Origin: Pyrinomonadaceae bacterium
GTDB lineage: Bacteria > Acidobacteriota > Blastocatellia > Pyrinomonadales > Pyrinomonadaceae
Assembly (NCBI GenBank): GCA_013813825.1
Contig: JACCRA010000155.1
Span: forward strand, 1 to 15,062
Direction: 5' to 3'
Length of the DNA stretch: 15,062 nt
Under the pieces are notes generated by a model, which had not been told where the DNA came from, made no database searches, and was given only the letters and a program-made list of their open reading frames with translations. Both the position numbers and the translations under genes were made by a program. Positions 3,162-7,547 of this stretch are shown piece after piece (the first letter of the stretch is position 1; the number at the start of each line of letters is the position of its first letter).

Positions 3162-3229
3162 CAGTTTTCAGTTTTCAGTTTTCAGTTTTCAGTAACTCAG
3201 CGTCAGTTTCTGCTAAAAAATGAAAACTG
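3162..3229. repeat. CAGTTTT heptamer array with an inverted copy
   Basis: Four full copies of CAGTTTT plus CAGT run without interruption through 3162-3193. An inverted copy (TGAAAACTG) lies at 3221-3229, so CAGTTTTCA and TGAAAACTG can form a 9-bp stem. The array begins 3 bases before the histidine kinase start codon, and the inverted copy ends 1 base before the polA stop. It therefore fills nearly the whole polA-kinase spacer and takes the place of a ribosome binding site. Confidence 0.85.
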
Positions 3230-3230
3230 T

Positions 3231-6200
3231 TTACTTCTTCACGTCCATCCAATTCTCGCCGATGCCGACTTCGGCTTCGAGCGGCACGTCGAGCTTGACA
3301 GCAATTGCCATTTCGCGCTTGAGGATCGCGGCGGCCTGCTCGGCTTCGATTCGCGGGGCTTCGATCAGCAGTTCGTCGTGGACTTGCATCACCATCCGCG
3401 CTTGGAGTCCGGCGCGCCGTAAGGCTTCATCGACTTTGAGCATCGCGAGCTTGACGATGTCGCTGGCCGTATTCTTGGAGATGATCCCCTCGGAATCGAA
3501 ACGATGCAGCAGGTCAGCAACTGCTAGGGTGTATGTTTCTTCCACGACACCGAGAGCGCGCTTTTCTCGCAAACGGCTCCAAGCGTACAAAGGAATCGAA
3601 AGTTCCGTGTCGGCTTCCTTTAGCATCTCAGCCACAGTGTAAATTGAGACAGCGCCGCCGTGCTTGAGGCGGCTGTGCAGCACACGGTGTGAGTGCCGGC
3701 GCAGTTGAGCCGGAGAGACTTGCACAAGAAATGCCGAGATGACAAATTGGGGAGCGTGCATTCCCGGCGTATGCACGAAACGACAGTTACTGTAACCGAG
3801 AGCCTTGCCCAACATCCCGCCGACCAAATCCAACCGGTGTGAGGTGAACCCTTGATAGGCATAAGGCCCGCGCAACTTGCCCTCCACGCCTACCGTGCGG
3901 AAGATGAGTTGCAGGTCGGCCAGCAGGGCGCGTTGGCACAAGTGCAGGGAAGGAGTGGTCGCGCCACCTCCGCCTTGACAGCCGTCCGCATCCAACATGC
4001 CGCGCAAGAACGCCTTCCGCGAAGACAACGGGCTGCGAAACACAAAGTCAGGTATTCGCTTCGTCTTCGCGTTGGCCTGTGTGTTGACGCCGATCCGCGC
4101 CATGAACTCAATCAAGCCTTTGGAGTAAATAGTCACTTCGGCTTTCTGCTGTGACTGCCACCGGAAATTGGTCCTGAGTCCTAAGCTCTCAAAATAAGTG
4201 GCACACTCGTCTGCTTTAGAGACGATCTCCATGCGGTTCTCTAACCTCGCCGTGCCGAGCGAGTAAGTTAAACACCACCGGTGTTTTTCCGGTTGATGAT
4301 TGATCCATCCGTCTCCGAGGTAATACCCTAGCCAGTAAAAAAAATTATCCCCGAAGCTGGTGATGGTGAAAGGCAGCACATGGCTGACATCCGGGCGAGA
4401 AACGGATGGAAGGTGGAGTGAACCAAACTCAATTGGCTGCGATAAGCTCCGGCAGATTCTATCGCCCGCGGCGAGGTCAGCATAGCGCTTCCACTCATAA
4501 CCGTCCTCGGTCATCACGAGCACTTCATGCCTCGTGTCACACCGTAGCACTTGGCCGTTAGCCAAGTGCAGTTCCGCCAGTTCATGCAAGCCGCGATTTA
4601 AGACCTCAAAGCCGGCGAACGCGGTTCCCGTCCAAACCTTCAGCCCGTTACTCCCGCGTCGGTAAAGTTCCCCGATTGGGAGATACCCGCCGGAGGTCAG
4701 CACTTTGGTTTCGTAAGGCAAACAACCCTGAATCGGCATATTGATGGCTTCGCGTTCGGCGCGGGCGCGAATCTGCCCGTTGCGGTCGTTGATGGTCGGC
4801 AAGGGGCGGATGCGTCCGTAGAGCGAACGCATTAAACCTTTCTCGCGCGCCTCTTCGGGGACGCGATCCATGAAGGCGCGAATGCCTTTATAGGTCTTGA
4901 AGTAGTCGTCGATCACCTGCTTGGCTTCCTTGCGCGAGATGCCGACGCGCTGCGAGAGGCCGAAAGGTTCGACGGCGTAGGCGATGGCGAAATTAACGAT
5001 CTTGGCGAAGCGGCGCTTTTCTTTCAACTCCTCTTTCGTCCGTGCCCCAAAGACAAGTTGCGCCGTGCGTGTGTGAATGTCGTCGTCGTTCTGAAAGGCG
5101 TCGAGCATCACCGGATCGCGCGTCACATGGGCGAGCAGTCGCAGTTCGAGCTGCGAGTAGTCGGCCGCGACGAAGACGTTGCCCTCATCTGGAATAAACG
5201 CCCGGCGGATGCGGCGGCCGAGTTCGGTGCGGATCGGAATGTTTTGCAGATTCGGCTCGCTGCTCGATAATCTTCCGGTCGCCGTCACGGTTTGGTTGAG
5301 TTGGCTGTGGATGCGGCCGTCGGGACCAATCAGTTCGGGCAGCGTGTCGGTGTAAGTCGTCTTCAGTTTATCAAGTTCGCGGTATTCGATGATCAGGCGG
5401 GGCAGTTCATACTTCAGTGCAAGCTCGTCCAAGACGGCGCGGCTCGTCGAGACCTGTCCGGTCGAAGTCTTGCGGCCCGAACTGATGTTTAATTCTTCCA
5501 GCACTTCGCCGACTTGCTTCGGCGAGTTGATCTTGAACTCGCGCCCGGCCTCTCTGTAGATCGCTTCGGTCAGCTTCGCCAACTCCGCGCCGAAGAGGGC
5601 GGATAACTCGCGCAACGCGCCCGTGTCCACGCGCAAGCCGGCGCTCTCCATGCGATAGAGCAGCGGTGCGAGCGGTAGTTCCATCTCGGTGTAGATCGCC
5701 TCCAAGCCTTGTTCGAGAAGGCGGCCGTGGAGCACGTCGGCCGTCTGCGCCGTGAAGTCGGCGGCCTCGGTTGCGCGCCAGTGCGCGGGGGACCAACCTT
5801 CGGGCGCTTCCGTCCAGCCGCCGGCCCCGACCGCCTCGCCGGCGAGATCGCCGAGGTCGTACTTGCTGCGGATCGGATCGAGCAGGTAGGCGGCCAGCAG
5901 CGTGTCGTCGGAAACTCCCTCGAGATTGATATTCAACTGCGCGAGCAGCGCAACGGCGCGCTTTAGATCGTGAACGGATTTGGAGAGTAGCCCGTTGCCT
6001 AACACGTCGCCAAGCATTTCAGCCGCCGCCCCGGCCCCGCCCTCGAAATTTTCCAGATCGACAAACGTGGAAGTGTGCGGCGCGGTTGAGATGGCGATGC
6101 CTGTAGGCGCGGCCTGATCTCGCGCCGCGCCCTGCTGCCCGGCTCCGGCGGGTGTCGAATCGGCGACGGCGAAGCCCCAGTGATCCACATCCCAGAGTTG

Positions 6201-7220
6201 CTTGACTAACTGCGCCAACTCCGCCCCGGTCGTGACGCGGCGATAGCGACGCTCGGCGCTCAGGCCGGAAGCCGCTCCGCCGGCGGCGTCGGCAAACTCG
6301 CGTGTCAGCGTTTGAAATTCAAGCTCGCGAAATAACGTGTAAGCGGCGGCGCGGTCGGGCGTGCGCGCGCGCAACTGGTCCAAGTCGAGTTGGATGTTGA
6401 CATCCGTTTTGATCGTCGCCAAGTCGCGCGACTGGCGGATCAAGTCAGCGTTGGCGCGCAAACTTTCGCGGTAAGTCTTGTGCTTCACTTCCTCCCAGCG
6501 CGCGAGCGCCGCGTCAATCGAGCCGAACTGTTTGACGATCTGCACCGCCCCTTTCGCCCCGACGCCGGGCGCGCCCGGAATGTTATCGACCGCGTCGCCC
6601 ATCAGTCCGAGCAGATCGATAATCTGCGTTGGCGGCACGCCGAACTCCGCCTCGACCCAATGTTCGTCGCACCACTCGACGGGTGGCACCGGTTCCTTGC
6701 GCTTCACGTTCTGCGAGTTCTGCCGCATACAGACGACGAGCGGATCGCGCACGATCTGGCACATGTCCTTGTCGTTCGAGACGATGACGGCTTGCCGCCC
6801 ACAGGCGGCGGCCTGCACGGCGAGCGTTCCGATCACATCGTCGGCCTCAAAGCCGGGGGCGTTGATGATAGGGATGTTGAAGACTTCGCAGACGCGGATG
6901 ATGTACGGGATTTGCGAAGACAACTCGTCAGGCATCTCGGCGCGATTGGCCTTGTAGTTAGCGTCCATCTCGTGCCGGAACGTCGGCACGCCCGACTCGA
7001 AGACGGCGGCGATGTAATGTGGCTGTTCGTCGGCTAAGAGCTTTCGCAGCATGTTGGTGAAGACGAAGACGGCCTGCGTCACTTGCCCGCGACTATTCGT
7101 GAGCGGCTCGACACGCCCGCTCATCGGCGCAAAGAAGGCGCGGAAGATGTGCGACATCGAGTCGATCAAATAGACGCGCTCAGGAGCCGTGGCGGAAGCG
7201 GAAGAGGTGGCCGGTGGCAT
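3231..7220 (-). CDS. polA: DNA polymerase I, interrupted by an in-frame intein
   Basis: Pol I fills gaps and removes RNA primers during replication and repair. Numbering is from the ATG at 7220; a TTG at 7259 would add 13 unconserved residues. The 5'-3' exonuclease domain (about 14-310) shows YLIDSMSHIFRAFFAP, FEADDVIGTLA (124-134) and the helix-hairpin-helix GLMGDAVDNIPGAPGVGAKG. The 3'-5' exonuclease fold (about 325-500) lacks the DxE of motif I and the aspartate of motif III (FTAQTADV where active enzymes have YxxxD), so proofreading is probably absent. Polymerase motif A is AADYSQLELR with Asp687. The O helix RRFAKIVNFAIAY has Lys740, Phe744 and Tyr748. Motif C is VHDE (1280-1283). An intein occupies residues 833-1250 (bases 3471-4724). 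Without it the protein is 911 residues, a normal Pol I size. The start has no clear Shine-Dalgarno sequence. The gene is divergent from lpxC. Confidence 0.96.
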   Translation of the reverse strand: MPPATSSASATAPERVYLIDSMSHIFRAFFAPMSGRVEPLTNSRGQVTQAVFVFTNMLRKLLADEQPHYIAAVFESGVPTFRHEMDANYKANRAEMPDELSSQIPYIIRVCEVFNIPIINAPGFEADDVIGTLAVQAAACGRQAVIVSNDKDMCQIVRDPLVVCMRQNSQNVKRKEPVPPVEWCDEHWVEAEFGVPPTQIIDLLGLMGDAVDNIPGAPGVGAKGAVQIVKQFGSIDAALARWEEVKHKTYRESLRANADLIRQSRDLATIKTDVNIQLDLDQLRARTPDRAAAYTLFRELEFQTLTREFADAAGGAASGLSAERRYRRVTTGAELAQLVKQLWDVDHWGFAVADSTPAGAGQQGAARDQAAPTGIAISTAPHTSTFVDLENFEGGAGAAAEMLGDVLGNGLLSKSVHDLKRAVALLAQLNINLEGVSDDTLLAAYLLDPIRSKYDLGDLAGEAVGAGGWTEAPEGWSPAHWRATEAADFTAQTADVLHGRLLEQGLEAIYTEMELPLAPLLYRMESAGLRVDTGALRELSALFGAELAKLTEAIYREAGREFKINSPKQVGEVLEELNISSGRKTSTGQVSTSRAVLDELALKYELPRLIIEYRELDKLKTTYTDTLPELIGPDGRIHSQLNQTVTATGRLSSSEPNLQNIPIRTELGRRIRRAFIPDEGNVFVAADYSQLELRLLAHVTRDPVMLDAFQNDDDIHTRTAQLVFGARTKEELKEKRRFAKIVNFAIAYAVEPFGLSQRVGISRKEAKQVIDDYFKTYKGIRAFMDRVPEEAREKGLMRSLYGRIRPLPTINDRNGQIRARAEREAINMPIQGCLPYETKVLTSGGYLPIGELYRRGSNGLKVWTGTAFAGFEVLNRGLHELAELHLANGQVLRCDTRHEVLVMTEDGYEWKRYADLAAGDRICRSLSQPIEFGSLHLPSVSRPDVSHVLPFTITSFGDNFFYWLGYYLGDGWINHQPEKHRWCLTYSLGTARLENRMEIVSKADECATYFESLGLRTNFRWQSQQKAEVTIYSKGLIEFMARIGVNTQANAKTKRIPDFVFRSPLSSRKAFLRGMLDADGCQGGGGATTPSLHLCQRALLADLQLIFRTVGVEGKLRGPYAYQGFTSHRLDLVGGMLGKALGYSNCRFVHTPGMHAPQFVISAFLVQVSPAQLRRHSHRVLHSRLKHGGAVSIYTVAEMLKEADTELSIPLYAWSRLREKRALGVVEETYTLAVADLLHRFDSEGIISKNTASDIVKLAMLKVDEALRRAGLQARMVMQVHDELLIEAPRIEAEQAAAILKREMAIAVKLDVPLEAEVGIGENWMDVKK
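3471..4724 (-). other. PolA intein with LAGLIDADG homing endonuclease
   Basis: This protein intron of 418 residues excises itself from Pol I. The left junction is MPIQG|CLPYETKVL and the right junction is GIISKN|TASDIVK; joined, the extein reads MPIQG-TASDIVK, matching uninterrupted Pol I. In intein numbering, block A starts at Cys1 and block B contains RCDTRHEVLV with His66. The endonuclease motifs are LGYYLGDGW (Asp138, block C), KRIPDFVF (block D), LRGMLDADG (Asp247, block E) and LLADLQLIFRTVGV (block H). Block F is TYTLAVADLLHRF and block G ends in Asn418, followed by Thr as the +1 nucleophile. Two usual splice residues differ: the block B position three before the His is Asp rather than Thr, and the residue before the final Asn is Lys rather than His. 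The DNA looks less GC-rich than the flanking polA. Both endonuclease acids are kept, so homing activity is plausible but untested. Confidence 0.95.
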
Positions 7221-7547
7221 GATACTGTGATGATAGGAAAAAGCAGTAGCGGGTGACAAGCAAAAGGGGACGAGAACACACGGGACGACACCCGGCGAGC
7301 GGCCCGCGAACCAACATTTAAGCGGCGCGCGATTCAGACGCGGCAGTGGCTTGCGCTGCTCTGGCAGTCGTCATGCTCTTCAGAGTGTGGCGTAAGCGCC
7401 TCATTCAATCGGCGGCGCCGTTGCCATCCCGCCACTGGGCCGGAAGGCAGGCCGCAGTTTCCTTGCTCTTTGAATGTTGTCGGGGCGGTACGCACATTGC
7501 CAAGCACAAATCGCTATTATGCTTTTCGGCATTCGCCCGGCAACTCA
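7221..7547. other. Divergent spacer between polA and lpxC
   Basis: These 327 bases separate the start codons of two divergent genes and must hold both promoters. I see no conserved open frame, tRNA or strong hairpin. A TATTAT at 7515-7520, 27 bases before the lpxC ATG, could be a -10 element. The best -35 candidate, TTGCCA at 7497-7502, is only 12 bases from it, too close for a standard sigma-70 promoter. No convincing promoter was found on the polA side. Confidence 0.4.

Follow-up and report, generated by a model that had tools for sequence, protein, structure and literature searches.

The DNA polymerase I gene (polA) of a Pyrinomonadaceae bacterium raises the question of what interrupts its polymerase domain: a mobile intein, an intein kept as a regulator, a decayed insert or an ordinary protein domain. 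The gene is located in a window of 15,062 nucleotides, the whole stretch of DNA that was analysed (contig JACCRA010000155.1). The best explanation, with a rough probability of 0.87, is a mobile intein of the class 1 type, equipped with a LAGLIDADG homing endonuclease and residing in the chromosomal polA gene of a Pyrinomonadaceae-like acidobacterium. It would be spliced out and would home, as proposed earlier from the sequence (the original prediction).

polA is a minus-strand open reading frame (ORF; 7259-3231) coding for a precursor of 1342 amino acids. Its identity is based on Pfam domains and the NCBIfam equivalog PRK05755. The start codon is a TTG at 7259; an ATG is present 13 codons further in. 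On the whole precursor, Pfam detected the 5'-3' exonuclease and DNA_pol_A, the latter split into two matching stretches. Between them lies an insert of 418 amino acids (CLPYE...IISKN), residues 846-1263 of the precursor and 4724-3471 of the window. It is located between Gly and Thr of NMPIQG/TASDI (slash, insertion bond), with an open frame on both sides. The original prediction had placed an intein of this length between these two residues, and its boundaries are exact. The gene is composed of three parts:

4725..7259, minus strand: polA N-extein, which covers the 5'-3' exonuclease, an RNase H-like (exo1) domain and the larger part of the polymerase domain and ends in ...NMPIQG
3471..4724, minus strand: full-length intein of 418 amino acids, C1...N418
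3231..3470, minus strand: polA C-extein of 79 amino acids plus stop codon, its first residue being the +1 nucleophile Thr (TASDI...)

In the numbering of Taq polymerase, the insertion bond is Gln754-Gly755/Thr756, as counted when the intein-free relative L004 was aligned with polymerases of solved structure. The glutamine is presumably equivalent to Gln849 of the E. coli enzyme. By calculation, the precursor has 148.6 kDa, the intein 46.9 kDa and the two exteins combined 101.8 kDa, in agreement with the predicted sizes of about 47 kDa for the intein and about 100 kDa for the spliced product.

Nearly all relatives in the order lack the insert. The whole precursor was searched against 119 genomes of the order; 117 of them matched, a few only weakly. 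Apart from the window's own genome (G000) and G001, 105 loci of 104 genomes were fetched. The site was read by script in 102 and by eye in one (L008); two fetched loci end before the site, and G105, one of their genomes, was covered by another locus. Among the 105 readable genomes, the site is empty in 103 and occupied in two, G000 and G001. In the DNA of the empty sites, the flanks are joined base-exactly: 45-55 of 60 bases equal the joined flanks of the window (median 51, 102 sites). The lineage is rare within the window's order. A class-level search (162 genomes) matched 15, namely G000, G001 and, weakly, 13 others at 27%-35% identity. A sample of the phylum (396 genomes) yielded five matches, G000 plus four weak ones at 26%-35% identity.

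Splicing and endonuclease domains

The predicted structure of the intein (mean predicted local distance difference test score, pLDDT, of 88) was matched end to end, over residues 1-418, by solved full-length inteins and has the Hint fold. Every intein block had been predicted to be present. The blocks are indeed recognisable, with three of the usual helper residues replaced. The positions of interest for splicing are:

4722..4724, minus strand: Cys1, the first nucleophile
4518..4544, minus strand: block B, RCDTRHEVL, with Asp63 at position B:7 and His66 at B:10
3471..3536, minus strand: blocks F and G, TYTLAVADLLHRFDSEGIISKN, with Thr399 at F:4, His407 at F:13, Lys417 at G:6 and the terminal Asn418

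Canonical residues are Thr B:7, His B:10, Asp F:4, His F:13 and His G:6, and about 5% of functional inteins are without His G:6 (PMC4031507, accessible part). In the window intein, Thr B:7 is replaced by Asp, Asp F:4 by Thr and His G:6 by Lys. The same residues recur throughout the 89 complete members of the family at this site: Cys1 and Asp B:7 are present in all 89, His B:10 in 88 and Thr F:4 in 88, with a single Ser. His F:13 and the terminal Asn are invariant, and so is Lys G:6 (89 of 89; the rule for delimiting inteins required a Lys-Asn end, and four complete PolA rows outside the rule, counted in the total, also end with Lys-Asn). The +1 residue is Thr in 81 members, as in the window, Ser in seven and Cys in one. 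As a control, 21 loci were scanned with a block F/G pattern, which yielded readings for 13 inteins, including two from the PolA G/T family; eight loci, L068 among them, were unread. The other 11 inteins all have His at G:6, with Asp at F:4 in ten and Ser in one.

Cys at position 1, a C-terminal Asn followed by Thr and the block B His place the intein in class 1. Members of this class start with Cys or Ser, end with Asn before a Ser, Thr or Cys, and have the block B His; the helpers Thr B:7, Asp F:4 and His G:6 are customary but do not define it. Class 2 inteins have no nucleophile at residue 1 and rely on direct attack by Cys+1 (accessible part of PMC4031507). Cys1 and Thr+1 rule out this class. 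Class 3 requires Cys F:4 and has no residue-1 nucleophile; it is ruled out by Cys1 and by F:4, which is Thr in 88 of 89 members and Ser in one.

Splicing may proceed as follows. polA would be translated as a single 149-kDa precursor. Cys1 would attack the preceding Gly, and the chain would then pass to Thr+1. Cyclisation of Asn418 would release the 47-kDa intein and leave the exteins joined as a 102-kDa Pol I. Asp63, Thr399 and Lys417 would take the helper roles of Thr B:7, Asp F:4 and His G:6, with the invariant His407 (F:13) probably assisting Asn418 in its cyclisation. It is reasonable to expect that Pol I activity relies on splicing. A tentative proposal, held with limited confidence, is that the PolA G/T family represents a distinct mechanistic branch of class 1, in which the block B Thr and the block F Asp exchanged places (Asp B:7, Thr F:4) and Lys took the place of the penultimate His. 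This co-adapted set would have a single origin and would have been carried into the PolA of viruses, Patescibacteria and Acidobacteriota with no reversion. In such a branch, the two helpers at B:7 and F:4 may have traded their functions in the activation of the N-terminal bond, and Lys417 and His407 may drive the cyclisation of Asn.

In the insert, the Pfam model LAGLIDADG_3 scored 34.6 bits, above the cutoff of 22.5. Two motifs with acidic residues, together with the fold, identify a LAGLIDADG (DOD) enzyme:

3792..4364, minus strand: LAGLIDADG homing endonuclease, residues 121-311, blocks C, D, E and H; the model resembles I-DmoI in this region
4308..4334, minus strand: LAGLIDADG motif 1, WLGYYLGDG, with the acidic Asp138 intact
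3981..4007, minus strand: LAGLIDADG motif 2, LRGMLDADG, with the acidic Asp245 intact
3612..3749, minus strand: predicted three-helix segment, residues 326-371, between the endonuclease and block F

The three-helix segment is possibly an extra DNA-binding part. The freed endonuclease would cut intein-free polA at the codons for NMPIQG/TASDI, and repair would then copy the intein in. Homing at these conserved codons would explain both the patchy occurrence of the intein and its transfer between hosts.

Family, hosts and mobility

A search for inserts at the G/T site of bacterial PolA had been suggested with the original prediction. The search with the intein region found 94 proteins at E <=1e-5 among the 8000 best candidates scored; the protein searches with both intein lineages described here were limited to this number of candidates, and the family counts are lower bounds. 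The first 90 proteins are of the PolA family, with an intein after Q[GAS]; the last four have ribonucleotide reductase and SufB domain hosts. Complete inteins were delimited in 89 cases, and one protein, P0076, ends inside the intein. By source name, carriers include Pyrinomonadaceae (P0005, P0007 and P0076), Acidobacteriota (P0021), Patescibacteria (P0040) and Daviesbacteria (P0038, L052, L054 and L055), together with viral contigs (L056-L065). The remaining group labels in the trees were assigned by similarity. Scans restricted to two peptide patterns found 10 loci on viral contigs, with an alignment as query, and five loci on genome contigs; a single-sequence scan of the viral contigs gave no match. 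Among 50,697 phage records, no place covered 80% of the window intein or of the P0049 intein used as queries, and no carrier was found. The best phage match of the P0049 query was an unnamed coding sequence adjoining nrdB in Aeromonas phage PhAER-4. A search with the P0025 polymerase yielded endonuclease-free PolA of about 900 amino acids at up to 84% identity among the 120 matches listed of 7655; the named matches among them were Bipolaricaulota, at 68%. The P0025 host can be placed only roughly, near Bipolaricaulota. G001 has a PolA frame of 1793 codons (L070:7930-13308) with two inteins: one at TGRLS/S with a canonical end and one at QG/T that belongs to the window's family.

The histories of intein and host were compared on a FastTree phylogeny of 165 N-extein residues from 89 carriers and 99 empty relatives; three short script-read empties and L008 were left out. 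On it, the carrier state requires at least 18 changes, eight of them forced by well-supported branches; with many long branches, the details of this tree are unsafe. The closest PolA rows to the window are empty ones, L004-L007. Over the same residues, the N-exteins of P0020, P0022, P0025 and P0028 are 47%-48% identical to that of the window, and their inteins 60%-63%. For P0017-P0019, the N-exteins share 65%-68% and the inteins 57%-60%. On the intein tree, without P0028, the inteins of the acidobacteria cluster together (support 91/83), adjoined by Bipolaricaulota-like inteins (82/27). The GC content at third codon positions is 0.648 in the intein, lower than in the exteins and three neighbouring genes (0.749-0.778). 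By these comparisons, the histories of intein and host PolA are discordant.

A second type of intein occupies the same bond. The polymerase encoded by L068 (G035:C118), of the 3'-5' exonuclease/family-A type, has a canonical intein that ends THN/SSADI. The contig has just 3.3 kb, so its assignment to genome G035 is unsure. A search with L068 found 243 proteins, of which 120 were listed and examined; source names among these include Pyrinomonadaceae, Chloroflexota and Rubrobacteraceae. The 88 inteins that could be delimited are all located after Q-G and all end with His-Asn. Of the other 32, 29 also have His-Asn and three were unread, so that G:6 is His in 117 of 117 readable cases. When the 89 inteins were aligned by profile with these 88, Asp63 came to stand opposite Ser, Thr399 opposite Asp and Lys417 opposite His. 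In a tree of sampled inteins (22 of the Lys type, 18 of the His type and three others), the two types separate, each with a support of 100/100. On this sequence evidence, they are two separate intein lineages at one bond, each in its own polymerase paralogue. As a side observation, genome G010 has two long frames of about 1260-1270 codons (L066:448-4260 and L067:3-3779) that fuse a 3'-5' exonuclease/family-A polymerase to a part with a P-loop-like stretch, GKSGNGKS in one frame and GDTGSGKT in the other; Pfam found only the exonuclease and polymerase on L066.

The neighbours of polA in the window are lpxC, a partial hemL, both as predicted, a PAS/HisKA sensor kinase and an NFACT protein. In G001 and G042, the ORF directly after polA resembles the sensor kinase of the window, as judged by eye, which suggests that polA of the window lies at a normal site of the chromosome. 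A perfect tandem repeat of seven bases (CAGTTTT x 4.6, 3162-3193) is present in the short stretch that separates polA from the kinase gene. The window's own genome codes for at least two more inteins with canonical His-Asn ends:

G000:C74 = L071:1122-3383, minus strand: intein locus in a PhoH-like protein
G000:C440 = L072:775-4680, minus strand: intein locus in GyrA

Weighing the explanations

Several observations weigh against an active and mobile intein. Both splicing profiles remained below their cutoffs on the insert: Intein_splicing with 19.4 bits (cutoff 35.8) and intein_Nterm with 21.4 bits (cutoff 24.5). The three usual helpers are replaced, and no biochemically studied member of the PolA G/T family was found. 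The source metagenome-assembled genome (MAG) is 78% complete and consists of 819 contigs. Of the 89 members, 66 have Asp at position 138 and 22 another residue (Asn in 15), with one gap; at position 245, 74 have Asp and 15 do not, eight of these having Glu. Some endonucleases of the family are therefore probably inactive. Among 27 near carriers (351 pairs), intein identity correlates with extein identity (r 0.61), and the exteins of the closest carriers, P0002-P0008, are more alike (78%-88%) than their inteins (70%-74%). Vertical inheritance plus frequent loss thus accounts for part of the pattern, and vertical descent with loss inside the Pyrinomonadaceae is also possible on these identities.

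The strongest rival is a splicing intein that no longer uses its endonuclease and is retained as a domesticated regulator, a switch of Pol I production that acts slowly or depends on conditions. It is unlikely. The insertion in the active site would suit a switch, and the replaced helpers could tune the splicing rate: in a phage class 1 intein, precursor accumulates when Gly G:6 is changed to His (PMC5050341, accessible part). The endonuclease, however, falls only a little short of the splicing region in conservation. In comparison to 26 near relatives, it has 64.5% identity and the splicing region about 71% (71% and 72% in the two halves); the helical part has 57% and the short linker before the endonuclease 33%. 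Asp138 is present in all 26 relatives and Asp245 in 22, the others having Glu (three) or Ala (one). This pattern fits a recently active homing endonuclease, and patchiness and discordance match a homing element. A decayed or misassembled insert, leaving a precursor without splicing and a broken polA in the window's genome, is still less probable. The non-canonical B:7, F:4 and G:6 and the draft state of the MAG would suit it, but the frame is open on both sides and G001 has the same arrangement. The unusual residues are invariant or nearly so in the 89 complete members and hence not a sign of decay; this family-wide conservation led to its rejection. An ordinary PolA domain, for which no supporting point was found, is ruled out by the empty sites in 103 of 105 readable genomes of the order and contradicted by the Hint fold match of the model. 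The outcome named as refuting the original prediction, related PolA proteins that all have the segment as an ordinary domain, is thus absent.

Comparison with known systems

A review table (PMC5874633, accessible part) lists PolA among the hosts of bacterial inteins, and a PolA intein as such is thus known. This answers in part the earlier doubt whether the site is rare: the host is listed, at least 90 plus 243 database proteins match in two lineages, and the family is rare in the window's own order. No description of the G/T site, the two lineages or the Asp/Thr/Lys set was found in the literature searched, mostly the accessible parts of non-subscription papers, without the main intein census. 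The word 'intein' does not occur in the main text of PMC6302109, which deals with viral family-A polymerases. New in comparison to the original prediction are the family-wide replacement of helpers and the separate canonical lineage at the same bond of a paralogous polymerase. The intein is an ordinary kind of mobile element, well bounded, at a less-discussed host site and with a family-wide catalytic variant. The site offers a natural experiment: a single bond, set in a conserved motif with which family-A polymerases contact DNA, has been invaded by two intein lineages, each in its own paralogue, and about 100 empty relatives are at hand for comparison. The residue set is a test of how far intein helpers can be rewired, and helper variants could provide inteins with other splicing kinetics. 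The distribution over several phyla and viral contigs informs how inteins travel.

The class 1 LAGLIDADG inteins TliVMA, PI-PkoII, PI-PfuI and PI-SceI share the Hint fold with an inserted endonuclease, and the model aligns with them over its whole length. Identity is 15%-21%, and the PolA intein differs by Asp B:7, Thr F:4, Lys G:6 and its bacterial PolA host. Mycobacteriophage class 1 inteins without the penultimate His have Gly, Lys or Ser at this position; a Gly member was shown to splice, and the block F His can substitute (PMC5050341, accessible part). They resemble the PolA family in class and, in some members, in Lys G:6. They differ, within the same part of that source, by other hosts and by conserved remaining catalytic residues, whereas the PolA family is also changed at B:7 and F:4. 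The TGRLS/S intein of G001 also has PolA as its host protein, and the G001 PolA has both this intein and one at QG/T; it is located about 180 residues upstream of the latter and has a canonical His-Asn end. The group of L068 and P0212 shares the insertion at Q-G/S/C/T, Cys1 and LAGLIDADG with the window intein. It differs in size (340-380 amino acids in 88 of 88 delimited inteins) and in His G:6; P0212 has Asp at F:4 and Ser at B:7.
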